Source of the DNA: Streptomyces ruber
GTDB taxonomy: Bacteria; Actinomycetota; Actinomycetes; Streptomycetales; Streptomycetaceae
Reading direction: 5' to 3'
Length of the DNA stretch: 64,000 nucleotides
Assembly (NCBI RefSeq): GCF_014648075.1
Contig: NZ_BMQK01000018.1
Coordinates: 1 to 64,000 of the forward strand
How positions within the stretch are numbered: position 1 is the stretch's first letter; the number at the start of each line of letters is the position of its first letter. Under the pieces are notes generated by a model. The model saw only the letters and a program-made list of their open reading frames with translations, was not told the DNA's origin and ran no database searches. This document shows, piece by piece, positions 893 to 27,942 of this stretch. Position numbers and translations under genes: made by a program.

Positions 893-2809
893 TCACAGCC
901 GGGCGCCCAGGACCTCGGTCATCAGGGCGCCGACGAGGCGTACGCCGTCCTCGGTGAGCACCGACTCCGCGTGGAACTGCATTGAGGCGAAGTGCGGGCC
1001 GCGCAGCGCGTGCACCTCACCGGTCTCCGGGTCGCGGCTGACCTCCACCAGGCCCACGCCCTCGCACTCCGCCTTGGCCTCGGGGCTGCGCGCGGCGAAC
1101 GTGTTGTAGAAGCCGACCCGTTCGCCGGCGCCGAAGAAGTCGATCTCCTGTTGCACGCCCTGGTTCGGCACCTCCCGGCGGACCAGCGGGAAGCCGAGCC
1201 GCATGCTGAGCACCTGGTGGCTGAGGCAGACCGCGAGGAACGGCCGCCGCTCCGCGAGCAGGGTGTCGACCGCCGACCGCAGATGGGCGATCTTCGGGTG
1301 TCCGGCCTCGCGCGGATCGCCGGGGCCGGGGCCCATGATGACCAGGTCGTGGCCGTCGAAGGTGTACGACTCGTCGAAGCGGCGGACCGTCACCCTCAGG
1401 CCCATCGAGCGGAGCTGGTGGTCGATCATCGAGGTGAAGGTGTCCTCGGCGTCCACCACCAGCACCCGGCGGCCTGCCAGACCCGGCACGGACCGCTCCA
1501 GCCTGTTGTCGCCCGCCAGCCAGAACCCGGCGAGCGTGGTGTTGCGCCGTTCCAGAGCGGCCCGTACGTCCGGGTGGTCGCCGAAGCGCACGGCGTCCGC
1601 GCCCGCGGTCCGCCCGGCCGCAGGGCCGTCCACCTGGAGCGCCGCGAGCAGTCCGGCCGCCTTCGCGCGGGTCTCGGCGACCTCGGAGTCCGGGTCGGAG
1701 TGACGGACGAGCGTGGCGCCGACGCCGATCCGCACGTGGCCGGCGTGGTCGATGTCGGCGGTGCGGATGAGGATGGACGAGTCCATCGCGCGGCCGCCCG
1801 AGGCGTCGCGGCCGATGAGGGCCACCACGCCGCTGTAGTAGCCGCGGCCCTCGGGCTCGTACCGTTCGACGACCCGGCAGGCGCTCTCCAGCGGGCTGCC
1901 GGTGACGGTCGGGGCGAACATCGCCTCGCGCAGTATCTCGCGCGGGTCGCGGGTGCTGTGGCCCTTGATGAAGTACTCGGTGTGCGCGAGGCGGGCCATC
2001 TCCTTCAGGTACGGGCCCACCACCCGGCCGCCGGACTCGCAGATCCGGGCCATCATCTTCAGCTCTTCGTCGACGACCATGTACAGCTCGTCGGCTTCCT
2101 TGCGGTCGGCGAGGAAGTCCAGCACCCCGGGCAGGACGGGCCCGGTCGGCGGGTAGCGGTAGGTGCCGCTGATGGGGTTCATCACGGCGGTGCCGCCGAA
2201 GAGGCTGACGTGCCGCTCGGGGGTCGCGCCGACGAAGGTCCGGTCGCCGGTGTGGACGACGAACGTCCAGTAGGCGCCCGACTCGCCGCGCAGCAGCCGG
2301 CGGAAGAACGACAGCGCGCTGTGGGGGGTGTAGTCGGTGATGTCGGCGACGAAGGAGCGCTTGATGACGAAGTTGGCGCCCTCGCCGGTGCCGATCTCGT
2401 CCTTGATGACCCGGCGGACCGTCTCGGCGTAGTCCTCGTCGGACACGTCGAAGTCGCCGCCGGTGAGCGCGATCGGCACGTCCGGCAGCCGGCGCAGGAC
2501 CTCGTCGAGGGAGAGCGCGGCCTGGTCGGTGACGGTCATCGCGATCAGCGGTGCGTCGTCGTCGGGTCCGGCGAAGCCGCGCTCGGTGATCTGCCGGTAC
2601 GGGATCAGCGTCAGCAGCTCGTGGTGAGGGCCGCCGGCCGGCGGGGCCGGCTCGGGCAGGGGCAGGTCCGCCAGGGTCTGCGGCGTCGAGACCGCGCCGA
2701 GCAGGACGTCTACGGTGTCCGGCCCGCCAGCCTCCGGGCGGTGCAGCAGGGCGAAGGGACCGGGCCGTGCTGACAGGATCCGGTCGAGGAGTCGGGCCGC
2801 CCCGGTCAT
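893..2809 (-). CDS. phzE: PhzE-type 2-amino-2-deoxyisochorismate (ADIC) synthase
   Basis: This 638-residue fused enzyme makes 2-amino-2-deoxyisochorismate from chorismate and glutamine. Residues about 1-430 are the chorismate-binding synthase domain ([19 protein letters not shown], a [11 protein letters not shown] helix, [49 protein letters not shown]). Residues about 440-638 are a class I glutamine amidotransferase with nucleophile AVCLSHQ and FHAES for the His/Glu pair. The [13 protein letters not shown] segment and the fusion order are typical of PhzE rather than of TrpE/TrpG. The ATG at 2809 overlaps the isochorismatase stop (ATGA), which sets the start and implies coupling. With the isochorismatase and DAHP synthase genes it forms the module giving trans-2,3-dihydro-3-hydroxyanthranilate. 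A plain anthranilate synthase is the alternative, less likely given the neighbour. Confidence 0.93.
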
Positions 2810-3468
2810 GCGCGCGCTCCGGCCGTGCGGGCGGCGGCGCCGAGTTGGCCGAGGACGGTGTCCGTGGTGGTGACGACGGCGCAGCGCTGGGCGGCGTACT
2901 CCACGGCCAGCCGGTGGTACTCGGCGGAGAAGTCCGCGACCGCGTCGGCGACGAGGAACGGGCGGATGTCGTGGGTGAAGGCCTCGACCGCGGTCATCAG
3001 CACCCCGACGTGCGCGTACACGCCGCACACCACCAGTTGGTCGCGGTCCTGCTCACGCATCCACTCCAGCAGGCCCGAGCGGAAGAAGGCGCTGTAGCGC
3101 CACTTGGTGAACACCCGGTCGTCCGGCCCCGGCGCCAGCGGCTCGACGACCTCGCGGTCGGCGGGGTCCACGCGCATGCCGGGACCCCAGAAGTCCTTCA
3201 GCAGACCGCGCTGTTCGTCGGTCATCCCGCCGGGCTGCGCCGTGTACGCCACCGGCATGGCCGTCGCGACGGCCCGCTCGCGCAGCTGGGCGGCGTTGCG
3301 CACCAGCGGCTCGCGCAGCGGCGCGGGGAAGGGGCGCAGGAAGTAGCGCTGCATGTCGTGGACGAGCAGCACCGCGCGGTCCGGGTCGACGGACCACCCG
3401 GCGATGTTGCCGGGCAAGTCGTCCGCCGACGGCAGCGGATACGACTCGATGGGGGGTATGCCCGCCAT
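2806..3468 (-). CDS. phzD: PhzD-type isochorismatase
   Basis: A 220-residue isochorismatase-fold hydrolase expected to remove pyruvate from ADIC, giving trans-2,3-dihydro-3-hydroxyanthranilate. The start [20 protein letters not shown] and the strand [13 protein letters not shown] with its catalytic Asp match PhzD/EntB proteins. [12 protein letters not shown] carries the catalytic Lys, and [20 protein letters not shown] is the family signature. The ATG at 3468 follows AGAGGACAG. Its stop overlaps the start of the ADIC synthase gene, and it lies about 50 bp downstream of the DAHP synthase gene. No carrier-protein domain follows, so it resembles PhzD rather than the bifunctional EntB. There is no PhzF or PhzG homologue in view, so a phenazine end product cannot be claimed. 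3-Hydroxyanthranilate-type products are equally possible. Confidence 0.93.
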
Positions 3469-3521: not shown

Positions 3522-4724
3522 TTACGCCGCAGCCGGCTGAGCCGGGCGGCCGGTGAGCCACCAGGACGAGGTCACGGCCAGGGCCTGGCCGGGGTTGAGC
3601 CGCGGGTCGCAGAAGCTCGTGTAGCGGGTGCCGACGAGGTCGACCTCGGAGCCGTCGCGGACGCACTCGGTGACGTCGTCGGGAGTGGTCTCCAGGTGCA
3701 GCCCGCCCGCGACACCGCCCGCGGCGTTCACCGCGTGCTGGAACTCGTCGACCTCGCGCGCGACCGTATCCAGGAAGCGGGACTTCAGCCCGTCCGGGGT
3801 GATGACGGTGTTGCCGTGCATCGGGTCGGTCAGCCAGATGACCGGGTGCCCGGCCGCGCGTACCGCCGCCGCCAGCGGGGGCAACCGCTCGGCGACGGTC
3901 CCGGCGCCCATCCGCGCGATGAGGGTCAGCCTGCCCTCCTCCCGTCGCGGGTCGAGGCGTTCACACAGGGCGAGCAGCTCGTCCACCGTCATCCCGGGAC
4001 CGACCTTGCAGGCCACCGGGTTGACGATCTCGGCGAACAGGGCGACGTGGGCGCCGTCGAGCTGCCGGGTCCGCTCGCCTATCCACGGCCAGTGGGTGGA
4101 GGTGAGCAGCAGCCCTCCGTCCGGCTGTCGGCGCAGCATCGGGACCTCGTAGTCGAAGAGCAGCGCCTCGTGGCTGGTCCAGACGGGGGCGCCGATGCGG
4201 GCCCGGCCGGGGGCGTCGAGCCAGCCCAGGTAGCCCATGACGGCGTGGGCGGCCTGGTAGCCGGAGAGCAGCCGCTCCGGGTCGGGGCGCCGCAGCACGG
4301 GGTCGAGCTCCGGGCTGTTGACCATATGGCCGCGGTAGACCGGCAGTTCGAGGTCACCGACCCGCTCGGTGGGGCGGGAGCGGGGCTTGCCGAACTGGCC
4401 GGCCATCCGGCCGACGCGCACCACCGGCAGGCAGGTGTCCATCTCCAACTGACCGGCGAGCATGTTCAGCAGTCCGGCCTTGCGGGCCACATAGCCCGGG
4501 GTGCACTCGGCGGGGTCCTCCGCGCAGTCGCCGGCCTGCACCACATGGGCCTCGCCCACGGCCACCCGCGCCAGCATCGAGCGCAGGGTGTTCACGTCCT
4601 TCGCGTCGACGAGCGCGGGCCGGGCGGCGAGATCCTTGCGCACCCGCAGCACCTGCTCCTCGTCCTCCCAAGAGGGCTGCTGCAACGCCTGTCCGTATCG
4701 AATATCGAGCAGAGCGTTGTCCAC
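3522..4724 (-). CDS. Class II DAHP synthase (PhzC-like)
   Basis: This 400-residue 3-deoxy-D-arabino-heptulosonate-7-phosphate synthase catalyses the first step of the shikimate pathway. Class II signatures seen in order are ALQQPSW.D near the start, VQAGDCAED with the metal-binding Cys, [62 protein letters not shown] and [12 protein letters not shown] place the start at the GTG of [12 protein letters not shown] because GGAG lies about six bases upstream; the open frame continues further but that extension does not look like protein. It is first in the minus-strand operon and likely pulls carbon into the pathway free of primary-metabolism feedback control (inference). Three regularly spaced palindromic elements lie 160-215 bp upstream. 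Confidence 0.93.
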
Positions 4725-4936: not shown

Positions 4937-5003
4937 CCGACACACTGATGTCGTCCATCCGCAGTACGCCCGTCGAATTCCCGCAGTGTTCTCGGTTCTC
5001 CGC

Positions 5004-5047
5004 ACGTGTACGCGCATGCGACAACACGTGTACGCGCATGCGACAAC
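5004..5047. repeat. Perfect tandem duplication of a 22-bp unit
   Basis: Two adjacent identical 22-bp copies (5004-5025 and 5026-5047) begin ACGTGTACGCGCATGCG. Each contains the palindrome CGCATGCG, and the junction creates CACGTG. It lies in the intergenic region between the DAHP synthase promoter and the end of the first transposase-like gene. It could be a regulatory site. No matching inverted copy was seen beyond the transposase-like genes, so I do not call it a transposon end. Confidence 0.7.
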
Positions 5048-5104: not shown

Positions 5105-6319
5105 TCAGGCCCGGGTCACCGGGTGCTCAGCGGCGTTGCGGGCGAGCGCGACGACCGCGTGCGCGGCCGACGCCAGGGTCGTATGGCGGTGCCAGCCGCC
5201 GAAGGACCGTCCGGAGAAGTCCCGGATGCCCACCCGGTCGGCGATCTCGGTGAAGTCCCGGTCGACCCGCTCGGCCAGCTTGCTCAGCCGCACCAGGGAC
5301 GCCGGCGGCGTGGTGGAGAGGTTCGTCAGCCAGAGCTTCGCGGGCCAGCGCCCGCCCTCGTCACCGACCCCGAGGAGTACCACCTCACCCTGGCCCGGGG
5401 CCGGTCCGGACAGGGACGGGCCGGCCACTCGCACGGTCGCGGCCCAGTGGGTCCGGGGTGTCGTGTCCGGCCCGTGGTCTCCGGACAAGACGGGCCGCCG
5501 CAGGTCCCTGGCCATGATCATGATCTGCTCGGCGGCCAGCGGCCCCCGTCCGGCGGCGGGAAGGGCGGGGTCCGCGACGGTGAGCGGATGGTCCTCGCAG
5601 ACGCTCACCAGCAGCGGCATGCCCGCAGCGTGCAGCTTCTCGAAGATGGGTACGGCGTGCACCTCGCAGGAGTCGAGCACGAACGGCCGCACCGGCAGTC
5701 GCCAGCGCGTCACCGCCTCCAGACATGCCTGCACCACGCATTCGCTCAGCGTCTCCACCGGCACCCCGTCCGGGATCGCCACCTGGCTGCGCCGGAGGTC
5801 GTCCTTGAGCCAGGCCTGCGGCAGGTGGAGGCGCCAGTTGACCGGAGCACTGATGGTGTCCGAGGCGGCCCACACACCGATGGCGCGCTGTGCGTTGAGT
5901 ACCTGCCCCAGAGACGGGAAGAAGTGCTTGTCCACGCCGACCGAATGGCGTCCGGTCTTCGGGATGATGACCGGCTGCACCATCCATGCCTGCGGTGGGA
6001 CGGCATCGAGCCAGTGACCGGCGAGCGCCCGGCGGATGGGGACCCAGTCCCAGGTGGAGGCCGAGATGAAGTGGTGCAGATTCTGCTCCGACACCTGCTT
6101 GTCGAGCAGCGCGGCGATGTTGCGTATGGACTTGCGGCCCGGTGTCTCGAGCAGGCCCCGTAAGTACTGCATGGCCTTTCTGCATTGGTCGCTGCGGGAC
6201 AGCGAGGTGAAGAGCAAGGAGGAGATCTCGGTGAGGACGGCGTCATGGGAACCGGACTGAAAGGGCGCGGGGGAGGTCCCTCGTGCTGTGGTCGTGGGAT
6301 GCGGGTCAAGGCTGAGCAT
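5105..6319 (-). CDS. IS701-type transposase-like protein, probably catalytically inactive (copy A)
   Basis: A 404-residue protein with the DDE transposase fold of the IS701 type. YLRGLLETPGRKSIRNIA and HHFISASTWDWVPIRRAL match the N-terminal part of the family. SVGVDKHFFPSLGQVLNAQRAIGVWAAS and the C-terminal FSGRSFGGWHRHTTLASAA match the core. Where active members have a VxxDDTGFxKKG strand this protein has AWMVQPVIIPKTG, so the first catalytic Asp is gone, and the C-terminal catalytic Glu (R-V-E-R) appears as Asp (RVDRDF). The ATG at 6319 follows AGGAG by five bases; the longer open frame upstream is not supported. No terminal inverted repeats or target duplication were seen. A homologous gene follows upstream in the same orientation. 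I infer a retained, possibly regulatory, transposase derivative; simple decay is the alternative. Confidence 0.75.
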   Translation of the reverse strand: MLSLDPHPTTTARGTSPAPFQSGSHDAVLTEISSLLFTSLSRSDQCRKAMQYLRGLLETPGRKSIRNIAALLDKQVSEQNLHHFISASTWDWVPIRRALAGHWLDAVPPQAWMVQPVIIPKTGRHSVGVDKHFFPSLGQVLNAQRAIGVWAASDTISAPVNWRLHLPQAWLKDDLRRSQVAIPDGVPVETLSECVVQACLEAVTRWRLPVRPFVLDSCEVHAVPIFEKLHAAGMPLLVSVCEDHPLTVADPALPAAGRGPLAAEQIMIMARDLRRPVLSGDHGPDTTPRTHWAATVRVAGPSLSGPAPGQGEVVLLGVGDEGGRWPAKLWLTNLSTTPPASLVRLSKLAERVDRDFTEIADRVGIRDFSGRSFGGWHRHTTLASAAHAVVALARNAAEHPVTRA

Positions 6320-6547
6320 GAATCTCCTAACTACTGATCCAACCCGTGCTGTGGCACATCCGGGTGTGTTCGAAAGAAGACGCTGGGTGAGGCTCGGCCC
6401 GAGAGCAAGGGGCTTGGGCGAGAGGTGAGTCATCACCGGCTGGGCGAGAGTGCGAAGTTACCGGACGGTAGTCCTGTTGATGTGGGCGGCATCACTCCGG
6501 ATGCCCGCCGGGCCGTACAACGGCCTGCGGCCGTGCCGCGGTGGCGA

Positions 6548-7645
6548 TCAGATGGGCGATATGCACGCCAGCGTGATGTGCCGGTGCCGGCCCGGGAACG
6601 CCCGCTCCGCGAAGTTCCGCAGGCCGATCCCGTCCGAGATCTCCGGGAAGTGCCGCTCAACCAGTTCCGGCAGCCGGGTCGAACGCAGCGCGGACAGCAG
6701 GCAGGAGGCCGTGAAGGCGGTCAGCCACAGCCGCCGGTCCGCCCGTCGGCCGGGGCACCACTCGGCCACCAGCGTCATCGGGGCCCGCCCCGTCGGCGAG
6801 GCCGGCACCGGGACCGCCACGGCCGTCGTGCGTCCGTCCCCCGGATCCACCTGCTGGCGCAGGTGGGGCAGCAACTCGGCCAGTTCGCGCGCGGTGCGCT
6901 GGAGATCGCCGTGCTCGGGCAGCGCCGTCCGGTCGATCCGCGCCGGCGCCGCCGGACTCACCCGCACCACGAACGGCCGTCCGGGGGACGCGACATGCCG
7001 CGCGACCGCCGGTCCGTCCGGCTCCCCTGCATCCACGACCACGGGCAGCGGAGCCATTTCCGGGAGGTTCGGCAGTCCCGCCACCGCCTGCCGCACGCAC
7101 TCCTCGACGATGCCCGACGCCGCGTCCGCCGGGACGCCCGCCCGGTCCCGCAGGGGGTCGGCCGTCCAGCGGGCGGACAGCCGCAGCTCCCGGTCGACCG
7201 GTACCACCGACCGCTCCGGGGCCGGCCGGGTCCCGACCGCCGGCCGGCCGTTGACCGCGCCCAGCGGGGTCGGCTGCGGGTCCGCGCCGACCGGGTGCGA
7301 GCCGGCCCTGGGGGCCAGCGTCGAGCCGATCGTCCACGCCTCCGGGGCCAGGGTCTGCTGCGCCTGGTGGGCCGGGGCGTGCCGGATCGGTGTCCACTCC
7401 CAGGGCGAGGCGGTGACGAAGTGGTGCACGCTCTGCTGCGCCGACGCCCCCACGAACCGCGCCGCCATGCTCCGCAGCGTCTTGCGCCCGCGCACCGACA
7501 GCAACCTGCGAACGTACTGCTCGGCCCTCACCCGCTGCCCGTTGCGGTGCAGCGAGCCGAACAGCCGCCGGCGGAACTTCGCGGCCAGAACCTCCGCTAT
7601 GGGCCACTTTCCCGCCGCGTCCACGTGTCTTCGAAAGTCCCGCAT
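6548..7645 (-). CDS. IS701-type transposase-like protein, probably catalytically inactive (copy B)
   Basis: A 365-residue paralogue of the gene just downstream. It shares YVRRLLSVRGRKTLRSMAA, VHHFVTASPWEWTPIRHA and LRNFAERAFPGRHRHITLA with the other copy. The first catalytic strand reads AWTIGSTLAPRAGSHPVG, so the family DD pair is missing. The second Asp position (VVVDAGEPDG) and the last Glu (LVERHF) remain, giving a different set of losses from copy A. The ATG at 7645 is preceded by GGGGGAG. It is intact over its whole length, unlike neighbouring pseudogenes, which suggests selection on the protein (inference). It lies between copy A and the broken butyrolactone receptor gene. No insertion-sequence ends were found around it. 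Confidence 0.7.
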   Translation of the reverse strand: MRDFRRHVDAAGKWPIAEVLAAKFRRRLFGSLHRNGQRVRAEQYVRRLLSVRGRKTLRSMAARFVGASAQQSVHHFVTASPWEWTPIRHAPAHQAQQTLAPEAWTIGSTLAPRAGSHPVGADPQPTPLGAVNGRPAVGTRPAPERSVVPVDRELRLSARWTADPLRDRAGVPADAASGIVEECVRQAVAGLPNLPEMAPLPVVVDAGEPDGPAVARHVASPGRPFVVRVSPAAPARIDRTALPEHGDLQRTARELAELLPHLRQQVDPGDGRTTAVAVPVPASPTGRAPMTLVAEWCPGRRADRRLWLTAFTASCLLSALRSTRLPELVERHFPEISDGIGLRNFAERAFPGRHRHITLACISPI

Positions 7646-7676
7646 CGCCGCTCCCCCGTGGGTCCGCCCATCGAAA

Positions 7677-7692
7677 CAGGACTAACGTCCTG
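7677..7692. terminator. Short perfect hairpin followed by T-rich DNA
   Basis: CAGGAC-TAAC-GTCCTG forms a 6-bp stem with a 4-base loop, followed on the plus strand by CTTCTTTATA. It separates copy B of the transposase-like genes from the receptor pseudogene, and could be a weak terminator or an operator. Confidence 0.35.
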
Positions 7693-7787
7693 CTTCTTTA
7701 TACGCTGTTACGCGTGGGACCACCGCACATTTGCGCCAGCGGCGGTGTGCGGGACCGGCCTCACGTCGACAGGGGAGCGGTATCGCC

Positions 7788-8313
7788 TCAGGCCGCGGGG
7801 GCCGGGTCCATGTTCCGGTGCGGTGGGGTGACCAGCTTCGCCAGCACTCCGGGCCGGGCGATATCGGGGAGCGCCGGCTCCGGGAAGGCCGACACCTCCT
7901 CGCACACATTTCCGTCGGGCAGCGTCTCGGTGATCAGCTGGATGCCGGTCCAGGAACCGATGAGCTACCGTGCCACCTCCGATCCCGGGGCAGCCAGTAG
8001 GCCGGCGGCAGCGCCAGGTCCACCCATATCTGAAGCGTTACGGTCTGCGGCGGCAGCCGATCCAGGTCGGCCGCCTCGTCCGGGATGGCGCGGGCCAACT
8101 GCTCCTTCGACGCGCGAAGTCGAAGTACGGACCGCCGCGCGTGAGCCGAGTGCGCTCTCGATGAGGCCGCCGATGGCGGTGGCGTCGTACCCGAACTCGT
8201 TGAACACCTCTGCGGCGGTCTCCAGAATGATCTTCCGGGTGTGGACCGCCCGTTCCCGCCTCCCCGGGCAGCGCCTTCCCGACAATGCTTTTTACCCGCG
8301 TTTGGGCTGGCAC
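7788..8313 (-). pseudogene. Gamma-butyrolactone receptor (ArpA/TetR-type) pseudogene
   Basis: The N-terminal helix-turn-helix of a butyrolactone receptor reads RERAVHTRKIILETAAEVFN, EFGYDATAIGGLIE, then after a frame change ERTRLTRGGPYFDFA, and after another SKEQLARAIPDEAADLD. The C-terminal ligand-domain end is again recognisable: LIGSWTGIQLITETLP and LPDIARPGVLAKLV. At least three frame changes are needed, and about 50 residues of the middle are missing (175 codons against the usual 215-230). The gene is divergent from the afsA-like gene, the classical arrangement of receptor and butyrolactone synthase. The dead receptor could leave control to the two intact TetR-type genes nearby (inference). 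Confidence 0.85.
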
Positions 8314-8362: not shown

Positions 8363-9283
8363 TTGGTACCTGGCCAATTCGACTCAGGGGGAACGTTGTT
8401 CGATGTCGCTTTCGCCCCTCGCCCGTCCACCCCGTCACCGACTCTCCTCGGGTCCTACGCGCATCTCAAGCGCGTTGAGAACTTACTCGTCACCGGCTGG
8501 CAGCGGCTGACCGACCGGGACTTCTCACTTGCCGTCAGGTGGCCCGCCGTTCACGGCGACCTGCCGTACGACCCGCGGATCCTCGCGCAGACCGTCCGGC
8601 AGACCGGGCTGGTCGTCGCGCACGCCGAATACGACGTCCCGCTCACGCACCAAACCATGCTGAGCACCCTTTCCTTCACCCTCGCTCCCGGCCTTCGCAT
8701 ACCCCGCGGCCGCACGTCCGCGCCGGACGTGCGGATCGTCGTCGCGGAGAACGGCGGCAGACGGCGTACGACGAGCGCCCTGCGGATGTCTTTCCGGGTA
8801 CTGTTCGACGGAGTCGAAATGGCCCGTGCCGAGGCCGAGTTCGCGTGGGTCTCCGAGCGGGTCTACGCCCGGGTCCGGGGAGCCCGCCGCCATGTCGGCT
8901 GGGGGGCCTGGGCGGTGCCGGCGCCCGTGGACGCTCGGCTGGTGTCCCGACCGTCTGCGGCGGACGTGATGCTGTCTCCCGGGGACCGCCCGCACCACTG
9001 GCTGCTGCGCAACGACCCCGGCAACCACCTGCTCTTCGACCATCCAGTCGACCATGTGCCGGGCCTGGCCCTGCTGGAGGCCGCCGACCAGGCCGCACGT
9101 GCCCTGCTCGCCCCGGCTCCCCTCGCGCCCACCGGCATCGAGGCCGCCTACTGGCGGTACGTCGAGTTCGACCAGCCCTGCCATATCGAGGCCGAGCCGC
9201 TGCCGGAGCCGGGTTCGGTGCGGGTCACCGGGATCCAGCAGGGCGAGGCCGCCTTCCGCGTCGACTTCCGTACGGGCGGCTGA
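8363..9283 (+). CDS. AfsA-like gamma-butyrolactone biosynthesis protein
   Basis: AfsA-type enzymes join a beta-ketoacyl-ACP with dihydroxyacetone phosphate, the key step toward A-factor-type signals. This 306-residue protein shows two copies of the AfsA hotdog-like domain. The first contains VHKR-like YAHLKRVENLLVTGW and the second RRHVGW, followed by HHWLLRNDPGNHLLFDHPVDHVPGLALLEAADQA, which carries the family's conserved His/Asp stretch. The open frame begins with a TTG at 8363. A second TTG at 8396, just after a GGGGGA run, is an equally good start and would give about 295 residues. It is divergent from the receptor pseudogene, and the next gene (an aminotransferase remnant) starts at its stop codon. 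The reading frame is intact, so signal synthesis may persist although one receptor is lost. Confidence 0.88.
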   Translation: MVPGQFDSGGTLFDVAFAPRPSTPSPTLLGSYAHLKRVENLLVTGWQRLTDRDFSLAVRWPAVHGDLPYDPRILAQTVRQTGLVVAHAEYDVPLTHQTMLSTLSFTLAPGLRIPRGRTSAPDVRIVVAENGGRRRTTSALRMSFRVLFDGVEMARAEAEFAWVSERVYARVRGARRHVGWGAWAVPAPVDARLVSRPSAADVMLSPGDRPHHWLLRNDPGNHLLFDHPVDHVPGLALLEAADQAARALLAPAPLAPTGIEAAYWRYVEFDQPCHIEAEPLPEPGSVRVTGIQQGEAAFRVDFRTGG

Positions 9284-9990
9284 TGTCCGGATCGCCGGGC
9301 TCAGCGCCGCGGCGGTCCACTTCACCGCGATGCGGGTGCGCGACGGCCGGGTGCTCTCCTGGCTGCGCGCCGCCCTGGCCGACGCCTCGGCCGACCTCTC
9401 GCTGACGGTGACCGGCTACCTCTCGTCCGGTGCTTTCACGGTGGCCGGAGCCGACGAGACACCCGGACTCCTCGTCCGCACCGCGCCGCCCGCCTCCGGC
9501 CCCGTCGGGGTGCTCACGCTGACCGTCGTCGAGCAACCAGGGGTTCCTGCCGTCGGTGAAGCACGTCGGCGGCGAACCGGCCGCGATCCACTTCCTGCGG
9601 CAGACCGCCGAACAGGGTCGCGGCGATGTCACGTTCACCGACCGCCGCGGCCGGCTGAGCGAGGTGTCCATCTGAAGCCGGTCTTCTGGGACGGGACGAG
9701 ACGGGACTGGACTGAACTGGACTGGACTGGCGTGGTGTGGCCAGCGGCCGGCATGCTCGATGGGGTCACCAGGAGCGTCGTCCGCAGACAGATGGACCAC
9801 CTCGGCGTCGCCCGGCGCATCCGCGAGATCAGGCCCGCCGACCGGCCGGAAATGGCGGGCGTCGCCGTCATGAACTTCGGACGCCGGGTGCCGCGGTCCG
9901 CCGGACCGGCCCGGTGCCGCTGCCCGAGGCGCCTGCCTTCGTGGAACTGCTGCACCGGGCCTACGAGGCCGAGCCGCTCATCTCCCTGTG
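9283..9990 (+). pseudogene. Class IV aminotransferase / aminodeoxychorismate lyase-like pseudogene
   Basis: Segments of a PabC-like fold-type IV PLP enzyme appear in order: VHFTAMRVRDGRVLSWLRAAL near 9310-9380, LTVTGYLSSGAF and VGVLTLTVVEQPG to 9540, then in another frame FLPSVKHVGGEPAAIHFLR, then PAAGMLDGVTRSVVRRQMDHL with RPADRPEMAGVAVMNFGR, and finally LPEAPAFVELLHRAYEAEPL near 9920-9980. At least three frame changes and an in-frame stop after GRLSEVSI break it. It starts at the stop codon of the afsA-like gene. An aminodeoxychorismate lyase would fit a cluster that diverts chorismate to aminated aromatics, as its neighbours on the left do (inference). The assignment to PabC-like rather than branched-chain aminotransferase rests on length and motif order only. 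Confidence 0.7.
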
Positions 9991-10710
9991 GTCCTCGTAC
10001 GGCATGCAGCACAGCTGCGCGTCGGGCATCGCGGCGCACTCGTGGGGCGCCGAACCGTCGTCGAACCGCCAGCGCTCCGACGACGGTTCGCCGGTCGCCG
10101 AGGACGGGCTGCCCGCCACGTCGATCCCGCCGCGCGCCGCCTCCGCTGCCAGCTGCGGCAGCACCAGCCGCCAGAACGGTGTCACCGACCGCGCGGACCA
10201 GGCGCGGGCTGGATCGCGTTCCAGCCCTTCCAGTCCCGCCATCACAGCCGTGATGGCGGAGACCGCGTCGTCGAGGTCAACCCCCGGGGCCAGACCGCCC
10301 TGCCGCCGAGCCAGCGCGAGCAGCCCGCGCACCCAGTCCCGCCAGTGCTGCCACAGACTCACCCCGCTGTGCCAGGACGCGTCGTGCGCCAGGCCGAAAC
10401 CCGCCCTGAGCACCGGGTCGCAGGTGACCCACTCGGCGAGCGTGTGCGAGGTGTCGACGAGCAGTTGGAGCGGTTCTGGGTGCTGGGCCGGGACCTGCCC
10501 GGTCACGCACAGCAGGATCTCGGCCGCGGTCGACTCGACCGCCTCGCCAAGGGCCTGCTTGTTCCCGAAATGGAAGTGCAGAGCGCCCTGGCTGACTCGG
10601 GCGAGGGCGCAGATCTGCCCGATGGAGGATCCGGCGAAGCCGCCCCGGTCGAAGAGCTCGGCGGCGGATCGGATCAGTTGACGACGTGTCTTCGCGGCAC
10701 GGTCCTGCAT
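9961..10710 (-). CDS. TetR-family regulator, butyrolactone receptor-like
   Basis: A 249-residue TetR-type repressor. The N-terminus AAKTRRQLIRSAAELFDRGGFAGSSIGQICALARVSQGALHFHFGNKQALGEAV is a complete helix-turn-helix of the ArpA/ScbR class, where S/TRGALYFHF is usual. The ligand domain contains LLVDTSHTLAEWVTCDPVLRAGF and the C-terminal FWRLVLPQLAAEA helix. The last roughly 40 residues look unlike the family and overlap the aminotransferase remnant on the other strand, so the true stop may once have been earlier. I choose the ATG at 10710, with GGAG 11 bases upstream; a GTG four codons earlier is possible. It is divergent from the broken quinone oxidoreductase gene, which it may once have controlled (inference). 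Confidence 0.85.
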   Translation of the reverse strand: MQDRAAKTRRQLIRSAAELFDRGGFAGSSIGQICALARVSQGALHFHFGNKQALGEAVESTAAEILLCVTGQVPAQHPEPLQLLVDTSHTLAEWVTCDPVLRAGFGLAHDASWHSGVSLWQHWRDWVRGLLALARRQGGLAPGVDLDDAVSAITAVMAGLEGLERDPARAWSARSVTPFWRLVLPQLAAEAARGGIDVAGSPSSATGEPSSERWRFDDGSAPHECAAMPDAQLCCMPYEDHREMSGSAS

Positions 10711-13194: not shown

Positions 13195-13270
13195 CGCATA
13201 GTTGAAACCTGAACGAAGACTGAAATGTGAACGACGGATCGACGTTCCGATGGGGCGTAGGGAGTCTGGG

Positions 13271-13933
13271 GTGGCCGAGCGGCAGGAACGTGCGATCCGC
13301 ACGCGTGAGTCCATTCTCGAGGCCATGGCAAGCCTCTTCATCGAGGTCGGCTACGAGGCGGCCACCATCGCGGCGCTCGTCGAGCGCACCGGGCTGACCC
13401 GCGGAGCGCTGTACTTCCACTTCCCGACCAAGGAGGCGATGGCGCGCGGCGTGCTCGCGAGGGCGGTGACCCGCGAGGGCATCCTGCCCCAGACGCACAA
13501 GCTCCAGGAATGGGTCGACCTCGGCCTCCTGCTCGCCTACCGGCTGCCCCGGGAGCCGATGCTGCGCGCAGCGGTCCAGCTGTCCGTCGATCCCAGGGCG
13601 CGCGGTCTGTTCGGTACGCGCTGGCCGGACTGGATCGACCTGGGCGAGGACCTGCTCGTCGAGGCCAAGGAGCGCGGCGAGCTGCTGCCGCACGCCGTCC
13701 CCGCCGAGATAGCCCGGCTGGCCGTGGGCGCCTGGACCGGGGTGCAGCTGGTGACGGAGGCGCTGCCGGACAGGCTCGACCTGTCCGAGGAGATCGCCCG
13801 GCTCTACCAGCTGATCCTGCCCAACGTCGCCAGCATCGGCGTCCTCGCCAAGTTGGACACCTCCCCGTACCGCGCGGAACGGCTGCTCGGCCCGGCGGCG
13901 GACGCGGACGCTGCGGGAAAGCCCTTGACGTGA
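13271..13933 (+). CDS. Gamma-butyrolactone receptor-like TetR regulator
   Basis: A 220-residue protein of the ArpA/ScbR/BarA class, which binds DNA until a butyrolactone releases it. The DNA-binding part is RAIRTRESILEAMASLFIEV, GYEAATIAALVERTGLTRGALYFHFPTKEAM, which matches the class closely. The ligand-domain landmarks LQEWVDLGLLLAYRLPREPMLRAAVQLS, WPDWIDLGEDLLVEAKERGEL and WTGVQLVTEALP are in place, including the conserved Trp of the ligand pocket. I choose the GTG at 13271, which follows AGGGAG by seven bases; an ATG at 13250 is the alternative. A candidate binding element lies just upstream. Whether it is a true receptor or a pseudo-receptor that senses antibiotics cannot be decided from sequence. 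Confidence 0.9.
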   Translation: MAERQERAIRTRESILEAMASLFIEVGYEAATIAALVERTGLTRGALYFHFPTKEAMARGVLARAVTREGILPQTHKLQEWVDLGLLLAYRLPREPMLRAAVQLSVDPRARGLFGTRWPDWIDLGEDLLVEAKERGELLPHAVPAEIARLAVGAWTGVQLVTEALPDRLDLSEEIARLYQLILPNVASIGVLAKLDTSPYRAERLLGPAADADAAGKPLT

Positions 13934-15453: not shown

Positions 15454-17757
15454 ATGGAACCTGTGAACGAAATGGGGAAGTGGCATGGTTCGGCACCGCG
15501 AGAGGCAGTCGGTCCACAGCCGTGGGCCGCGTCGTCACGCATGGACCGCCTGAACCAGGTCGCGGAGCTGTTCGCGGAATGCCTCGGGTGTGATGAGGAG
15601 GCGGCGCGCACGTACACGCGGCGACTCCTCGAAGAGCCCGTCGCGCAGTCGCCCCCGGGCTCCTCCGGCGGCGGCTCGCGGCCGGCGGCTGCGGGCGGCC
15701 CGGTGACGCAGGACGGTGCCGGCGGAGCCCGGCGGACGGCCGCGGGCGACAGCGACGTCCCGGACGGCCACGAGATGCTCGCGGAGGTGAGCCGTGCACC
15801 GAGTCCCGTCGGACTGGCGCGACTCCTGCACGATCAGGTCCGGCCGCACGGCGCCTCGGCGGTGCTGCTGGCGGTCATCGACCGGCAGGGGGAACTTCGC
15901 ATGAGCGGTGTCGCCGGCGCATCGGCGCGGGAGGCCGACACCCGGTCGCGAATCCCACTGCGGTGCGTGCTCCCCCTCGCCCGGACGGCTCCCGAGGATC
16001 AGCTGCTGTGGATCGACGACGACAGCGGCGACCGGATCCTGGCGTGGGTCTCGTCCCGGAGCGGACCGTCGAGATCACCCGGTGACCGGGCCGGCGGCCG
16101 GGACAGCAGCTCTCCGGCGGAGCGTCTCCTGTGCGTAGTGATCGCTGTCTGGCCGGCCGGTCCGCCGCTGGAACCGGCGGTCCGGGAACGTGCGGAGGCA
16201 CTGACGGGGTCCGCCGGACGGAGGCTGTGCGGCCTGGCCGGCCGGGGACTTCCGGAGGAGGACCTGCATGCGCCGTGGCTCGCCGCGGTCCTCGATGTGA
16301 TCCCCATTCCCGCCGCACTGCTCTTCCCGATCCGGGACGCCCATGGCCGGGTCGTCGAATTCCACATCGACCGCTGCAACGGGCACGCCACGGACCTCCT
16401 GGGACGACCGCCCGAGCAGATCAACGGCGGCCGGCTCCTGGAGGTCCTCCCCGGCCTGAGCAACGCCGGCATCTTCGACGCCTACGTGAAGGTGCTGGAG
16501 ACCGGTACGCCCCTGCACCGCGAACCCTTCCCCTACGAGGAGCCGTTCCGCGGAGTGCGCTACCCCGCCGTGCTGAGCGTGCGGGCTCAGCGGATCGGTG
16601 GCGGGCTGCTGGTCAGCTGGCAGTTCCACGACGAGCAGGCCCGGATGGCGGCCCGGATCGACGACGCCGAAAGGCTGGTGGACCTCGCGTGGGCCGAGTG
16701 GAACCTGGTCACCGGCGAGATCACGTGGTCACCGCGCATGTACGACATCTTCGACCTGGATCCGGCGCTGGGCCCGCTCCCCCTGGACCGACTTTCCCGG
16801 CACGTTCGAGAGAACGACACCCCGGTCCTCACCCAGGCCGTGGAGACACTCTGCGAACAGCGTGAACCGGTGACGTTCGAGGTCCGCACGCGCCATGCCG
16901 ACCCCCCACGCCATGTGCGCGTCACTGCGGAACTGGTCCGGGACAGTCTCGGAAACCTGATCGCGGCACACGGAGTCGTCCAGGACGTCTCCGCCGCCCG
17001 ACGGATGGAGGCGGCGCTCGAAGCCTCACGCCGCGAGGCGGAACGTCAACGGCTGCGCATGGCCGAAGAGCTGCAACTGGCGCTGCTGCCCCGGCAGCAC
17101 AACAGACTCCCCGGCCTGTCGATGGCGCTGCGCTACCAGCCGGCGGAGGACAGTGCGCGCATCGGCGGCGACTGGTTCGAAGCGGCTCCGCTTCCCGACG
17201 GCCGGGTACTGATCGCCATCGGGGACGTCAGCGGGCACGGCCTGCTCGCGGCGGCGGGCATGGCGCAGCTGCGCCATGCCCTGCTGGGCATCGCGCATAC
17301 GGGCGCCGACGCGGCCCGCATCCTCGACTGCCTCAATCTCGTCGCCTATCACAGCCACGAGGAGACCGTGATGGCCACCGTGATCGTCGGGCACTTCCAC
17401 CCGCGCGACCGAACCCTCGCCTGGGCCCGGGGCGGCCACCCCCCTCCCGTCCTCGTCCGGGCGGGACAGGCCCGTGAGCTGCACAACGCCGACGGGATCT
17501 CACTGGGTGTCAGCCTGGATCCGGGATACGGGCTCGCAGCCGTCCGGCTTCAGCCCGGCGACCGCGTCATCCTCTACACCGACGGCCTGGTGGAACGCCG
17601 CGACGACCGGCGCGACGAGCGCTCGGCCCTGCTCCTGGACGCCGCCCGGCAAGGCGCCCTCGGCGGACCCGAGGAGCATCTCCAGACCCTGCTGTCCACG
17701 CTGGACACCAATCCGGAGGACGACACGTGCGTCATCGTCCTCCACGTGAGGAAGTGA
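15454..17757 (+). CDS. PAS-domain PP2C (SpoIIE-type) phosphatase
   Basis: A 767-residue soluble sensor phosphatase of the type that acts on anti-sigma-factor antagonists in Streptomyces. Residues about 90-270 look GAF-like, although part is low complexity. Residues about 275-390 form a PAS domain (VLDVIPIPAALLFPIRDAHG, NGHATDLLGRPPEQI). Residues about 400-525 form a second PAS domain (EWNLVTGEITWSPRMYDIFD, TFEVRTRH...HVRVTAEL), joined by a helix to the phosphatase domain at about 545-767. That domain shows LQLALLPRQ, IGGDWFEA, IGDVSGHGLLAA, GHPPPVLVR, LYTDGLVERR and DDTCVIVLHV. The usual GGDWYD is GGDWFE. The start is uncertain: ATGs at 15454, 15472 and 15541 are in frame. It ends 38 bp before the first hydrogenase-island gene and may be co-transcribed with it. 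Confidence 0.9.
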   Translation: MEPVNEMGKWHGSAPREAVGPQPWAASSRMDRLNQVAELFAECLGCDEEAARTYTRRLLEEPVAQSPPGSSGGGSRPAAAGGPVTQDGAGGARRTAAGDSDVPDGHEMLAEVSRAPSPVGLARLLHDQVRPHGASAVLLAVIDRQGELRMSGVAGASAREADTRSRIPLRCVLPLARTAPEDQLLWIDDDSGDRILAWVSSRSGPSRSPGDRAGGRDSSSPAERLLCVVIAVWPAGPPLEPAVRERAEALTGSAGRRLCGLAGRGLPEEDLHAPWLAAVLDVIPIPAALLFPIRDAHGRVVEFHIDRCNGHATDLLGRPPEQINGGRLLEVLPGLSNAGIFDAYVKVLETGTPLHREPFPYEEPFRGVRYPAVLSVRAQRIGGGLLVSWQFHDEQARMAARIDDAERLVDLAWAEWNLVTGEITWSPRMYDIFDLDPALGPLPLDRLSRHVRENDTPVLTQAVETLCEQREPVTFEVRTRHADPPRHVRVTAELVRDSLGNLIAAHGVVQDVSAARRMEAALEASRREAERQRLRMAEELQLALLPRQHNRLPGLSMALRYQPAEDSARIGGDWFEAAPLPDGRVLIAIGDVSGHGLLAAAGMAQLRHALLGIAHTGADAARILDCLNLVAYHSHEETVMATVIVGHFHPRDRTLAWARGGHPPPVLVRAGQARELHNADGISLGVSLDPGYGLAAVRLQPGDRVILYTDGLVERRDDRRDERSALLLDAARQGALGGPEEHLQTLLSTLDTNPEDDTCVIVLHVRK

Positions 17758-17795
17758 GCGATGACGCCCGGGACCCCGTGCGAGGGAGCACGCCC

Positions 17796-18398
17796 ATGAG
17801 CTTCTCCCCGGTCGGCGAGGCGGCCGTGCACCGCGCCTTCGCCCGTCGCGAGGCGGCCGCGCAGCACCTGGCGGACACCGCCGGGCAGGTGGCCGCGGTC
17901 TGCCGCGACATGGCCGCCCGATTCCGGCGCGGCGGCAAGCTGATCGTGTTCGGCAACGGCGAGTCGGCGGCCGACGCGAGCCACCTCGCGGTCGAGTTCA
18001 TGCATCCCGTCATGGTGGGGAAACGGGCCCTGCCGGCCGTGGCGCTCGGCAACGACTCGGCGACCCTGAGCGGAGTCGGCGCGCGGGAGGGGTTCGCCGG
18101 GGTCTTCGAGCACCAGCTGCGGGCATTCGCCGGCAGCGAGGACATCGCGCTCGGGATCTCGCCGGACGGCCGCTGCCGGAACGTACACCGCGGCCTGGCG
18201 GCGGCCCGGCGACTCGGCCTGCTCACCGTCGTCCTCAGCGGTGGCGTGCCGGAGGAGGCTCCCGCCGCCGACCATCTGCTGGTGGTGCCGGCCACCGATC
18301 CCCTGGTGGTCAAGGAGATGCACATGACCACCTACCACATGCTGTGGGAACTGGTGCAGGTTTTCCTTGAACAGTACGGGACGGAGCCGCCCGCATGA
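17796..18398 (+). CDS. SIS-domain protein, hydrogenase operon (first copy)
   Basis: A 200-residue sugar-isomerase (SIS) domain protein related to phosphoheptose isomerase GmhA. The phosphosugar loop reads KLIVFGNGESAADASHLAVEF where GmhA has GNGGSAADAQH. ALGISPDGRCRNVHRGLAAARRLGLLTVVLSGG is the second SIS strand pair. The end, KEMHMTTYHMLWELVQVFLE, resembles the GmhA C-terminal helix with its active-site His. The start ATG follows GAGGGAGC. Its stop overlaps the start of the small HypC-like gene (ATGA). As I recall, GmhA-like genes are reported with group 1h hydrogenases in actinobacteria, but their role is unclear. Two copies flanking a HypC-like gene suggest a heterodimer or a dedicated ligand-handling step (inference). 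Confidence 0.87.
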   Translation: MSFSPVGEAAVHRAFARREAAAQHLADTAGQVAAVCRDMAARFRRGGKLIVFGNGESAADASHLAVEFMHPVMVGKRALPAVALGNDSATLSGVGAREGFAGVFEHQLRAFAGSEDIALGISPDGRCRNVHRGLAAARRLGLLTVVLSGGVPEEAPAADHLLVVPATDPLVVKEMHMTTYHMLWELVQVFLEQYGTEPPA

Positions 18399-18670
18399 GG
18401 TCATGGGACGGCCGGGACCGGCCGGAATGCCCCGAGGACGTCTGCGTCACCTGCTCGGACGAAGCGCGCTTGCTGCGGGTCGTGAGGTCGCTGCCCGGCG
18501 ACATGGCGTTGGCCGCCGCCGACGGGTCGGCCGAGGAACCGGAGGAGATCAGCGTGGCGCTCGTCGTGGCGCCGGCCGGGACGACCGTACTCGTCCACGC
18601 CGGGGAGGCCATCGCGGCCGTGCCGGACGCCGCGCCGGGAGACACGAGGACGGGAGAGGTGGATGGGTGA
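18395..18670 (+). CDS. HypC/HupF-like hydrogenase assembly protein, divergent
   Basis: A 91-residue protein with a HypC-like barrel: CVTCSDEARLLRVVRSLPGD, then SVALVVAPAGTTVLVHAGEAIA, matching the HypC pattern V.V......A.V...G....V.L.......GDYVLVHAGFAI. In true HypC the protein begins MC with an essential Cys2. Here the CVTC motif is about 15 residues in, after an acidic stretch. A second, canonical HypC is encoded at 25422, so this copy probably has a separate role, perhaps with the SIS proteins that flank and overlap it on both sides. ATGA and GTGA overlaps indicate coupled translation. Confidence 0.75.
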   Translation: MRSWDGRDRPECPEDVCVTCSDEARLLRVVRSLPGDMALAAADGSAEEPEEISVALVVAPAGTTVLVHAGEAIAAVPDAAPGDTRTGEVDG

Positions 18671-19359
18671 CACGGATGGGTGACATGCCCGGCGGGATGC
18701 GGGAGCTGTATCCCTTCCTCTACGAGCGGCACGCCGATGCCGACACCGTGGTCGCCGAGGTGGCGGACGCCGTCCGGGAGAAGGCCGCCGAGATCACGGC
18801 ACTCCGGCGGGGTGTCGCGCACGGCTGTGCGCCGCGGATCGCCGCGTGCGCCGAAGCCATGGCGGAGCGGTTCGCAGCCGGGGGGCGTCTGTTCGTCTTC
18901 GGCAACGGCGGAAGCAGTACCGACGCCCAGGGCCTCGCCACCGTGTTCCTGCATCCGCCGGCCGGCTTCCGGGTCCTGCCCGCGCTCTCACTGACCAGCG
19001 ACGCGGCTGTCGTGACCGCGCTGTCCAACGACGTCGGTTTCGAAGCCGTCTTCGCGCGCCAGCTGGCGGCCCTGGCGCAGCCCGGAGACATCGCCGTCGG
19101 GCTGTCGACCAGCGGGGGCTCCGCGAACGTGGGGGCGGCCCTCCAGGTGGCGGCCGGGCGCGGCCTGCTCACCGTCGGCATGGCGGGCCACCACGGCGGA
19201 CTGCTGGCCGAACTCGACGCCCTGGACCATCTCTTCGTCATCCCGTCCGCTTCGGTCCACCGCATCCAGGAGGCGCAGACGACCGTGTACCACACCCTGT
19301 GGGAACTCACTCAGCTGAGGCTGCGCGCGGCACGGCCGACCTGCGGTGATACACGATGA
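18667..19359 (+). CDS. SIS-domain protein, hydrogenase operon (second copy)
   Basis: A 230-residue SIS-domain protein with GRLFVFGNGGSSTDAQGLAT (classical GmhA-type GNGGS loop), LSNDVGFEAVFARQLAALA, VGLSTSGGSANVGAALQVAA and the C-terminal helix VHRIQEAQTTVYHTLWELTQ. The GLSTSGGSxNV motif is closer to true phosphoheptose isomerases than in the first copy, where it is GISPDGRCRNV. The two copies are clearly related, but the first has a degenerate second loop, so one may be catalytic and the other structural (inference). I choose the GTG at 18667, which overlaps the previous stop (GTGA) and follows GGAGAGG; ATGs at 18676 and 18685 are alternatives. Its stop overlaps the small-subunit start. Confidence 0.87.
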   Translation: MTRMGDMPGGMRELYPFLYERHADADTVVAEVADAVREKAAEITALRRGVAHGCAPRIAACAEAMAERFAAGGRLFVFGNGGSSTDAQGLATVFLHPPAGFRVLPALSLTSDAAVVTALSNDVGFEAVFARQLAALAQPGDIAVGLSTSGGSANVGAALQVAAGRGLLTVGMAGHHGGLLAELDALDHLFVIPSASVHRIQEAQTTVYHTLWELTQLRLRAARPTCGDTR

Positions 19360-20447
19360 GCCGTCCTGCCGCGACTGACGGGAAATCCACGGAGGCCGAC
19401 GACCTCGTGGTCCACCTGCTGTGGATCAACGCCGGGCTCAGCTGCGACGGCGACTCGGTCGCGCTCACGGCCGCCACCCAGCCGAGCATCGAGGAGATCG
19501 CGCTGGGTGCCCTGCCGGGACTGCCGAAGGTCGCCCTGCACTGGCCGCTGCTGGACTACGAGTGCGGACCGGACGGCGGGGCCGACGCCTTCATCGACTG
19601 GTTCCACCGGGCCGGCCGCGGCGAGCTGGAGCCGTTCGTCCTGGTCGTCGAGGGCTCCGTACCGAACGAGGCGATCAAGCGGGAGGGGTACTGGAGCGGG
19701 TTCGGCATCGACCCGGCGACAGGTCAGCCCATCACCGTGTGCGAGTGGCTGGACCGGCTGGCGCCCAAGGCCACCGTGGTGCTCGCGGCGGGTACCTGCG
19801 CCGCGTACGGAGGCGTGCACGCGATGGCCGGCAATCCGACCGGCGCCATGGGCGTGCCCGACTATCTGGGCTGGGACTGGCGGTCGAAGGCGGACGTCCC
19901 GATCGTGTGCGTGCCGGGCTGCCCGGTCCAGCCCGACAACCTCTCCGAGACCATCGTCCACCTGCTCTACCAGATCGCCGGCCGGGCCCCCGCGATCCCG
20001 CTGGACGAGAACCTCCGTCCCGCCTGGCTGTTCGACCGGACCGTGCACGAGGGCTGCAGTCTGGCCGGCTACTACGAGCAGGGCGACTTCTCCGCCGTGT
20101 TCGGTCAGGACAGATGCCTGGTCAAGATCGGCTGCTGGGGCCCCGCGGTGAAGTGCAACGTGCCCAAACGCGGGTGGATCAACGGAGTCGGCGGCTGCCC
20201 CAATGTCGGAGGCATCTGCATCGCGTGCACCATGCCCGGCTTCCCCGACCGGTTCATGCCCTTCATGGACCAGCCGTCCGGCCTGCACACCCCGGAAACG
20301 GACGAGGGGCTGTACGGGATCCTCATCCGCACCCTCCGCGGCCTGACCCTGCACGACGTCGAGAAGGAACCGGAGTGGCGCCGCAGGGGCCACGAGCTGA
20401 CCACGGGCTACGAGCCCCCCTGGGAAGGAAGGGACGGACATGGGTGA
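19356..20447 (+). CDS. hhyS: [NiFe]-hydrogenase small subunit, group 1h-like
   Basis: The 363-residue electron-transfer subunit carries three iron-sulfur clusters that pass electrons from the NiFe site. Cluster ligands are visible in NAGLSCDGDSVAL, LAAGTCAAYGG and PGCPVQPDN for the proximal cluster, and in CSLAGYY, CLVKIGCWGPAVKC, GGCPNVGGICIACTMPGF for the others. The usual CxxC of the proximal cluster is CxxD here. As I recall, a 3Cys-1Asp proximal cluster is typical of the oxygen-insensitive, high-affinity group 1h enzymes. There is no twin-arginine signal peptide, consistent with a cytosolic or membrane-associated enzyme. The gene overlaps both neighbours. In Streptomyces such enzymes let spores and stationary cells oxidise atmospheric H2. 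Confidence 0.93.
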   Translation: MSRPAATDGKSTEADDLVVHLLWINAGLSCDGDSVALTAATQPSIEEIALGALPGLPKVALHWPLLDYECGPDGGADAFIDWFHRAGRGELEPFVLVVEGSVPNEAIKREGYWSGFGIDPATGQPITVCEWLDRLAPKATVVLAAGTCAAYGGVHAMAGNPTGAMGVPDYLGWDWRSKADVPIVCVPGCPVQPDNLSETIVHLLYQIAGRAPAIPLDENLRPAWLFDRTVHEGCSLAGYYEQGDFSAVFGQDRCLVKIGCWGPAVKCNVPKRGWINGVGGCPNVGGICIACTMPGFPDRFMPFMDQPSGLHTPETDEGLYGILIRTLRGLTLHDVEKEPEWRRRGHELTTGYEPPWEGRDGHG

Positions 20448-22209: not shown

Positions 22210-22212
22210 ACC

Positions 22213-22755
22213 ATGGACGCACTGCGGGAGACCGAAGCCCGAGTGGCGCAGCTCGTCGCACAGCTCTCCGCGACGCCGCGGGTGGGTGAACGCGCCGAAG
22301 AACTCGTACGGCTGCTGATGCGGCTGTACGGGGCCGGTCTCGCCCGGATCACCGGGGTGCTGCCCCCCGACACGGTGGCGCGGCTGGCCGCCGACGATCT
22401 CGTGGGCAGCCTGCTGATCCTCCATGATCTGCACCCGAGCTCCACCGCGGAGCGGATCGGGAAGGCCCTCGACCAGGCCCGGCATCGACTGGCGACGCAC
22501 GCGGCGGACCTCGAGCTGCTCGGTGTGGAGGAAGGCGACGAAGGGGATGTCGTACGGGTCCTGCTGCGGGAGGAGCGCAGCGGCTGCCCCTCCTCCGTCG
22601 CCGAGGAGGTGATCGAGCGCGCTGTCCTGACGGCGGCGCCCGAGATCGCCGCGGTCCGGGTGCAGCGCCCGCCCCGGGAGCCGGACCTGCTGCAGATCCT
22701 GCCCGGTCCGCCGCGGGAGGATCCCGCGGCGCCTCGCCGGGAGGCGCGGCGGTGA
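22213..22755 (+). CDS. NifU-like accessory protein
   Basis: A 180-residue protein starting 3 bp after the large-subunit gene. The helical region LVRLLMRLYGAGLARITG and ADDLVGSLLILHDLHPSSTA match NifU-like accessory proteins in hydrogenase clusters. The C-terminal part VVRVLLREERSGCPSSVAEEVIERAVLTAAPEIAAVRV corresponds to the NifU C-terminal Fe-S scaffold domain. That domain usually has CGxC; here only one Cys remains (SGCPSS), so stable cluster binding as a monomer is doubtful. It may help deliver Fe-S clusters to the small subunit or act in electron transfer (inference). The last 40 residues are Pro/Arg-rich. Its stop overlaps the next start (ATGA-type). Confidence 0.8.
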   Translation: MDALRETEARVAQLVAQLSATPRVGERAEELVRLLMRLYGAGLARITGVLPPDTVARLAADDLVGSLLILHDLHPSSTAERIGKALDQARHRLATHAADLELLGVEEGDEGDVVRVLLREERSGCPSSVAEEVIERAVLTAAPEIAAVRVQRPPREPDLLQILPGPPREDPAAPRREARR

Positions 22756-25155: not shown

Positions 25156-25444
25156 GGTCGGGTTGTGCGAAGAGATCCTTCGGGCGGTGGAACGCCGGGC
25201 GCGGGGACGCCGGGTCACCGGGGTCACGGTGCGGATCGGAAGCCTGCACGCGGTGGTCGAACCGGCCCTGGCGCAGTCCTTCGAGCTGGTGGCGCAGGGC
25301 AGCGTCGCCGACGGCGCCGGCATCGAGCTCGTCACGGTGCCCGGCGACGAGTTCACCCTCCAGTCCATCACGCTCACGCAGCAGGCAGCGGACCAGGCAG
25401 CGGCGGACCAGGGAGCGGCGGATGTGCCTCGGCATCCCGGGTGA
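25148..25444 (+). CDS. hypA: HypA-like protein without the zinc-binding cysteines
   Basis: The N-terminus MHEVGLCEEILRAVERRA carries the nickel-binding MHE start of HypA, a nickel metallochaperone. VTVRIGSLHAVVEPALAQSF and ELVAQGSVADGAGIEL follow the family pattern. The protein is 98 residues, against about 113. Where HypA has two CxxC zinc motifs, this one has VPGDEFTLQSITLTQQAADQ and no cysteine pair. It may be a minimal nickel carrier or need a partner. Its start overlaps the protease gene, and its stop lies inside the hypC start region. No HypB GTPase, the usual partner, is encoded nearby. Confidence 0.82.
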   Translation: MHEVGLCEEILRAVERRARGRRVTGVTVRIGSLHAVVEPALAQSFELVAQGSVADGAGIELVTVPGDEFTLQSITLTQQAADQAAADQGAADVPRHPG

Positions 25445-27921: not shown

Positions 27922-27942
27922 GGACCGGCCCGGGGACGGTGG

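Follow-up and report, generated by a model that had tools for sequence, protein, structure and literature searches.

The IS701L locus and its integrity

The window, a stretch of 64,000 nucleotides from Streptomyces ruber, carries two minus-strand genes in tandem, copy A and copy B, which the initial annotation had described as IS701-like and which are both present where it had placed them (Table 1). Both match the Pfam DDE_5 and NCBIfam transpos_IS701 (NF033540) profiles and, with NF033540 scores of 297 bits for A and 187.5 bits for B against a cut-off of 150, fall within the curated IS701 model, while sharing only about 32-34% identity with each other. We refer to these proteins and their catalytically dead relatives as IS701L. 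Downstream of the pair lies a string of DAHP synthase (DAHPS), PhzD-type and PhzE-type genes, and upstream are the butyrolactone regulatory genes that had been noted as neighbors, namely AfsA, the TetR fragments and a receptor-type TetR. As the window begins at the first base of the contig (G000:C18), it lacks the left part of the metabolite cluster.

Table 1. Features of the IS701L locus (positions in the window)
Feature	Position	Strand	Remarks
PhzE-type (ADIC/anthranilate synthase) gene, same string	893..2809	-	Position kept in relatives, 76-85% identical genes
PhzD-type isochorismatase gene	2806..3468	-	
PhzC-type DAHP synthase gene	3522..4685	-	Directly downstream of A
Copy A, catalytically dead IS701-like protein (IS701L)	5105..6319	-	Intact; probable 404 aa
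Conserved element AACAGGACTACCGTCCGGTAA, upstream of A	6458..6478	-	Directly ahead of the -35
Copy B, second IS701L, butyrolactone-cassette clade	6548..7645	-	365 aa, C-terminus truncated
TATAAAG and palindrome CAGGAC-GTTA-GTCCTG, upstream of B	7674..7702	-	Operator-like; conserved
TetR pseudogene	7815..8285	-	Broken by several frameshifts; a number of related species have it intact upstream of B
AfsA-type butyrolactone synthase gene	8396..9280	+	Divergent from the TetR-B-A string
Butyrolactone-receptor-type TetR regulator	9961..10710	-	Conserved in relatives' loci

The open frame of A extends to 6436 (5105-6436, 443 aa), and its true start is probably the ATG at 6319, as this codon is preceded by AGGAG and opens an M(L/C)SLD-type start common to the relatives. 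The earlier view that both genes are full-length and open holds for A and fails for B: alignment places a 2-bp insertion near 6578 that is found in the window only and is absent from relatives, ending B early (the G320 relative runs to 384 aa) and removing part of a conserved C-terminal helix. Similarly, the description of the neighboring genes as full of frameshifts is correct for the TetR pseudogene, but AfsA, DAHPS, PhzD and PhzE are open. Copy B thus appears, on sequence, to be decaying in this strain along with its TetR. An intact TetR at 13202-13933 (+) is 58-71% identical to the TetR found upstream of B in relatives, and may have replaced the broken one. Two further features accompany the locus, a perfect 22-bp tandem direct repeat (CACGTGTACGCGCATGCGACAA, 5003-5046) in the gap that separates A, at its 3' end, from the DAHP synthase gene, and, beside the cluster remnant (15541-30315), a SpoIIE-type gene followed by [NiFe] hydrogenase and maturation genes (HypD, HypF and others).

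A search of the window's own genome with A returned A and B as the sole long matches, the remainder being short pieces of 23-41% identity, and gave no near-identical multiple copies of A. An ordinary IS701 with an internal stop codon is also present in that genome (G000:C12:128211-129227, NF033540 E 1e-112).

Loss of the catalytic residues and family history

Active-type controls, taken from 30 IS701 loci of the same genus, carry DD or DE, then D, then E in RW.IE..[FY]..(L/A)K, and often occur as several identical copies per genome. When A and B are aligned with about 30 active-type relatives, both have the second Asp. The first Asp gives way to Q in A (QPV) and to G in B (GST), and at the YREK-type Glu (RW.IE) A has Asp and B still has Glu, so that the triads read Q/D/D and G/D/E. 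The alignment thereby confirms what had been read from the sequence alone, that the first catalytic Asp pair is absent (QPV and GST in place of DDT) and that A has Asp for the last Glu. An alternative placement of the catalytic Glu at the E of YEGRSW was rejected, as active relatives carry Q at that column.

The loss extends to the whole family. Among 122 distinct family proteins, the DD pair survives in a single one, the pSV2 transposase, included as the active reference. Across the family, almost no change is seen at the second Asp, the first Asp column varies freely (R, Q, H, G, S, D, L and others), and neither the Trp nor the Lys of the YREK region survives, so that the catalytic D, D, E set of IS701 is not retained. 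Two relatives of B (G320 and NRRL S-1022) do show D, D and E in the catalytic columns; this looks like drift, given that the first column holds G, R, S or L in sister sequences and that the Glu has lost its surrounding Trp and Lys.

In a maximum-likelihood tree, IS701L forms a single clade of about 120 distinct actinobacterial proteins, split from all active IS701 by a branch of length 1.03 (SH-aLRT 99). A and B belong to separate clades within the inactive side, and their subtrees are congruent, each pairing the window with S. thermovulgaris, G320 with NRRL S-1022, and G382 with G360. A single inactive clade with congruent A and B subtrees indicates that the inactivation is old and shared, and that the tandem pair was inherited together. 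The initial annotation spoke of different losses in the two copies; the residues do differ between A and B, but they reflect one anciently inactivated clade and not two recent independent events. A search of the genus with A found clear orthologs (71-82%) in seven species, with a B-like copy directly upstream in three of the seven as listed and in six by inspection of the neighborhoods; altogether, the tandem pair and its position are kept in about ten species. In four loci (L052 7654-9183, L063 8246-9859, L087 8731-9930 and L088 8338-9819), an A-clade gene has a different, independent kind of tandem partner upstream (VWTAKPVLLRKRG type), farther from A than B is.

Predicted structure and selection

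An AlphaFold2 model of A built from 63 aligned sequences reached a pLDDT of 91.4 and a pTM of 0.90. Among PDB entries, it comes closest to Tn5 transposase-DNA complexes (Foldseek E 4e-10; VIA Z 24 over 340 residues, with the N-terminal part covered), and it also matches the Tn5 inhibitor 1b7e (Z 16.7), so that the predicted protein has a Tn5-like DDE fold over its whole length; a search by sequence for a solved structure found none. Identity between active and inactive proteins is 39% in the N-terminal segment and 37% in the C-terminal GRS..GWHRH segment, and is lowest, at 20%, in the middle. Such a pattern would be expected if DNA binding had been kept and cutting lost.

A comparison of dN/dS with orthologs, proposed as a check when the genes were first described, separates the two copies. 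Pairwise NG86 medians, computed for A across ten species, are 0.277 for A compared with 0.258 for DAHPS, 0.234 for PhzD and 0.290 for PhzE; the value for B is 0.447, rising to 0.687 for the window B against its nearest relative. A is under purifying selection about as strong as that on the neighboring enzymes, and B is constrained weakly. Purifying selection without mobility, the hallmark of a domesticated transposase, is thus found for A and only weakly for B.

Gene neighborhoods and partner regulators

Scanning 84,980 species genomes by alignment yielded 80 named loci, from Streptomyces, Kitasatospora, Kutzneria, Saccharothrix, Actinokineospora, Kibdelosporangium, Longimycelium, Microtetraspora and other genera. 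These were selected by similarity to A and are kin to one another, so the counts that follow overstate independence. At most orthologs of A the order is a divergent AfsA, then TetR, B, A, DAHPS, PhzD and PhzE in one direction. Of the 80 loci, 37 have two or more of the three DHHA genes within 10 kb, 15 have SARP and 8 have AfsA. The commonest neighbor is a GAF and PucR-type (HTH_30) regulator, which is convergent with IS701L in most PucR loci and often overlaps its 3' end by a few bases. Among 20 arbitrary control regions of the same genus, PhzD, PhzE and PucR did not occur, and DAHPS occurred once. IS701L host clusters would often make precursors of the DHHA/3-hydroxyanthranilate type.

The association is also seen from the other side. 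A search with the PucR subfamily on its own gave 30 loci, of which 27 have IS701L adjacent and convergent; two of the remaining three have an IS701L a few kilobases off. A second sample of 20 weaker family members, picked without regard to context, showed the same partners in most loci, with AfsA-TetR-IS701L-SARP cassettes in two, an arrangement much like that on a plasmid of S. exfoliatus. The company kept follows the clade: A-clade genes commonly stand by DAHP synthase, PhzD and PhzE or are convergent with GAF-PucR, and B-clade genes stand in AfsA-TetR(-SARP) cassettes. More distant members (L208, L209, L210 and L211) lie in other gene strings, with no adjacent PucR, SARP or AfsA.

Promoter elements and the absence of IS ends

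The initial annotation found no terminal repeats around the two genes. Repeats of the active type, which in five active IS701 relatives span 20-127 nt at 96-100% identity, are indeed not found near A or B in the window, but one inverted pair (6463-6489/7664-7690, 81%) does flank B. We rejected this pair as IS ends, as each arm is a self-palindromic promoter element conserved in other species. In the butyrolactone-linked clade of the window, a AACAGGAC-N4-GTCCTGTT-type palindrome (AACRGGAC-N4-GTCC) stands ahead of both A and B; the -35 of A is TTGACA in most relatives and TTCGCA in the window. Between TetR and B in relatives, AAACAGGAC-N4-GTCCTGTTT overlaps the TATAAAG box, and it may resemble the ARE consensus of butyrolactone receptors (ScbR/ArpA-type).

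Loci with other partners have other elements. PucR loci carry two GGTGG-N5-CCACC palindromes exactly 32 bp, or three helical turns, apart, mostly 90-260 bp ahead of the predicted IS701L start. The pair is present in 23 PucR loci and in one locus without PucR (L125, where the contig ends just past the gene), and by a strict rule is absent from 22 PucR loci and 34 others. Among noncoding GGTGG-N5-CCACC sites, 39 of 56 lie before IS701L, 5 before a methyltransferase gene and 4 before PucR. The sites ahead of PucR (L083 13368, L086 13259, L092 13377 and L097 13215) suggest an autoregulated PucR-IS701L module. CTTGG direct repeats with an 11-bp period are found in 5 of 15 SARP loci, in none of 32 PucR upstream regions and in one other locus of the same clade, with 1.2 expected in all from shuffles.

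IS701L thus looks like a shared downstream node, being the constant member of loci in which the type of element tracks the partner regulator. Autoregulation by IS701L alone is a less likely source of these operators, given that the element type shifts with the neighboring regulator. Taken by themselves, the elements show control over IS701L and not control by it.

Origin and possible role of IS701L

That the genes were domesticated, as the initial annotation had suggested, is strongly supported by the combination of family-wide inactivity, purifying selection on A, a tandem position conserved in about ten species, the lack of bounding IS ends, and placement in regulatory cassettes. What the proteins now do is less certain. 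With modest confidence, we favor the explanation that A and B belong to an old, domesticated and catalytically dead IS701-type family that is controlled by a cluster regulator and itself acts as a DNA-binding regulator of the cluster, with A as the intact working copy beside DAHPS, PhzD and PhzE in the window. A role as a DNA-binding regulator is the most likely one in view of a predicted Tn5-like fold that is complete, N-terminal part included, and of the IS701L gene being the main target of operators of the cluster-regulator type.

In such a mechanism, the partner regulator (GAF-PucR, SARP or a butyrolactone-responsive TetR) would read the signal, a GAF ligand or a butyrolactone, and set the level of IS701L, a step that the promoter elements support. 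From its fold and the company of its gene, IS701L would then bind DNA in or near the cluster through the old transposon-end-binding part, without cutting, and DNA-bound IS701L would control the DHHA and tailoring operons. Whether this extends to a general rule, with DDE-derived transcription factors as a standard part of actinobacterial clusters and a common node through which GAF-PucR, SARP and butyrolactone-TetR switch biosynthetic operons, seems to us an evenly balanced question.

A possible, though less probable, alternative is that IS701L was domesticated as an effector and is merely switched on by the cluster regulator, serving to protect DNA against the product, to shape nucleoid architecture, or to help form or export the product. 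The operators by themselves show just joint control of IS701L with biosynthetic genes, and the precursors made here belong to pathways with possibly DNA-active products, both of which suit an effector. However, the density of sites at the IS701L promoter far exceeds that at biosynthetic genes, as would be the case for a regulator in a cascade, and B-clade genes stand between TetR and SARP in cassettes that are purely regulatory.

We think it improbable that IS701L inhibits transposition in the manner of the Tn5 inhibitor, with a dead relative blocking active IS701 through mixed complexes or by binding its ends. Active IS701 elements are common in the genus, and the fold of A does match 1b7e, but the long branch and low identity to active elements speak against it, and the genes are tied in their placement to metabolite genes and not to IS elements, with no active-type repeats close by. 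Plain dead remnants whose decay is still to come are more improbable still: the truncated window B with its high dN/dS would fit, but for A this reading is refuted by frames that are open and under purifying selection in ten species, and more generally order and partners are conserved and fold residues are kept family-wide. Least probable of all is that IS701L still works as a nuclease or transposase with its active site rearranged, a reading which the near-invariant second Asp and the D/D/E columns of G320 and NRRL S-1022 might suggest, but which is at odds with a freely varying first-Asp column, the missing Trp and Lys, and the absence of both active-type terminal repeats and multicopy spread in its own genome.

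Comparison with known systems

IS701L resembles IS701 transposases (DDE_5, NF033540) in profile, length and order of regions, with the N-terminal ...DQ..K..YLRGLL..GRKS... and C-terminal GRS..GWHRH motifs in common, and differs from them in lacking the catalytic DDE and the YREK-region Trp and Lys, and in that A and B are without terminal repeats and reside by cluster regulators. The likeness to Tn5 transposase (1mus) and its inhibitor is one of predicted fold over the whole length, with sequences about 10% identical. The inhibitor arises from the transposase gene as a truncated product and resides in the transposon, whereas IS701L is a separate cluster gene. In principle, the role proposed here resembles that of TldR proteins, TnpB-derived, RNA-guided transcription factors in which a mobile-element enzyme has become a bacterial regulator (PMC13418256); these have an unrelated fold, and IS701L derives from a DDE transposase with no known guide. 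A further parallel is Pzm10, a 432-aa “transposase” beside the DAHP synthase of the penzonemycin cluster with no assigned role (PMC9323291), which by its description is similar in size and has the same place by DAHP synthase in a 3-hydroxyanthranilate cluster. In a search of the open literature, no such protein other than Pzm10 was found described as a cluster component. We know of no description of a DDE-transposase family in a cluster-regulator role.

The label “transposase” in an annotation is usually read as noise or as the border of a cluster; here, it belongs to a conserved and selected cluster member, and hides a tie to a dedicated regulator and defined promoter elements. If IS701L is a regulator, it would provide a new means of activating silent clusters and a bacterial instance of a domesticated DDE transposase, and many “IS701 family transposases” in databases would be misnamed regulators. 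One member carries no annotation: on a plasmid of Streptomyces sp. NBC_01276 (L138), a gene at 5899-7266 is convergent with a helix-turn-helix gene and stands by a type I polyketide synthase gene string.
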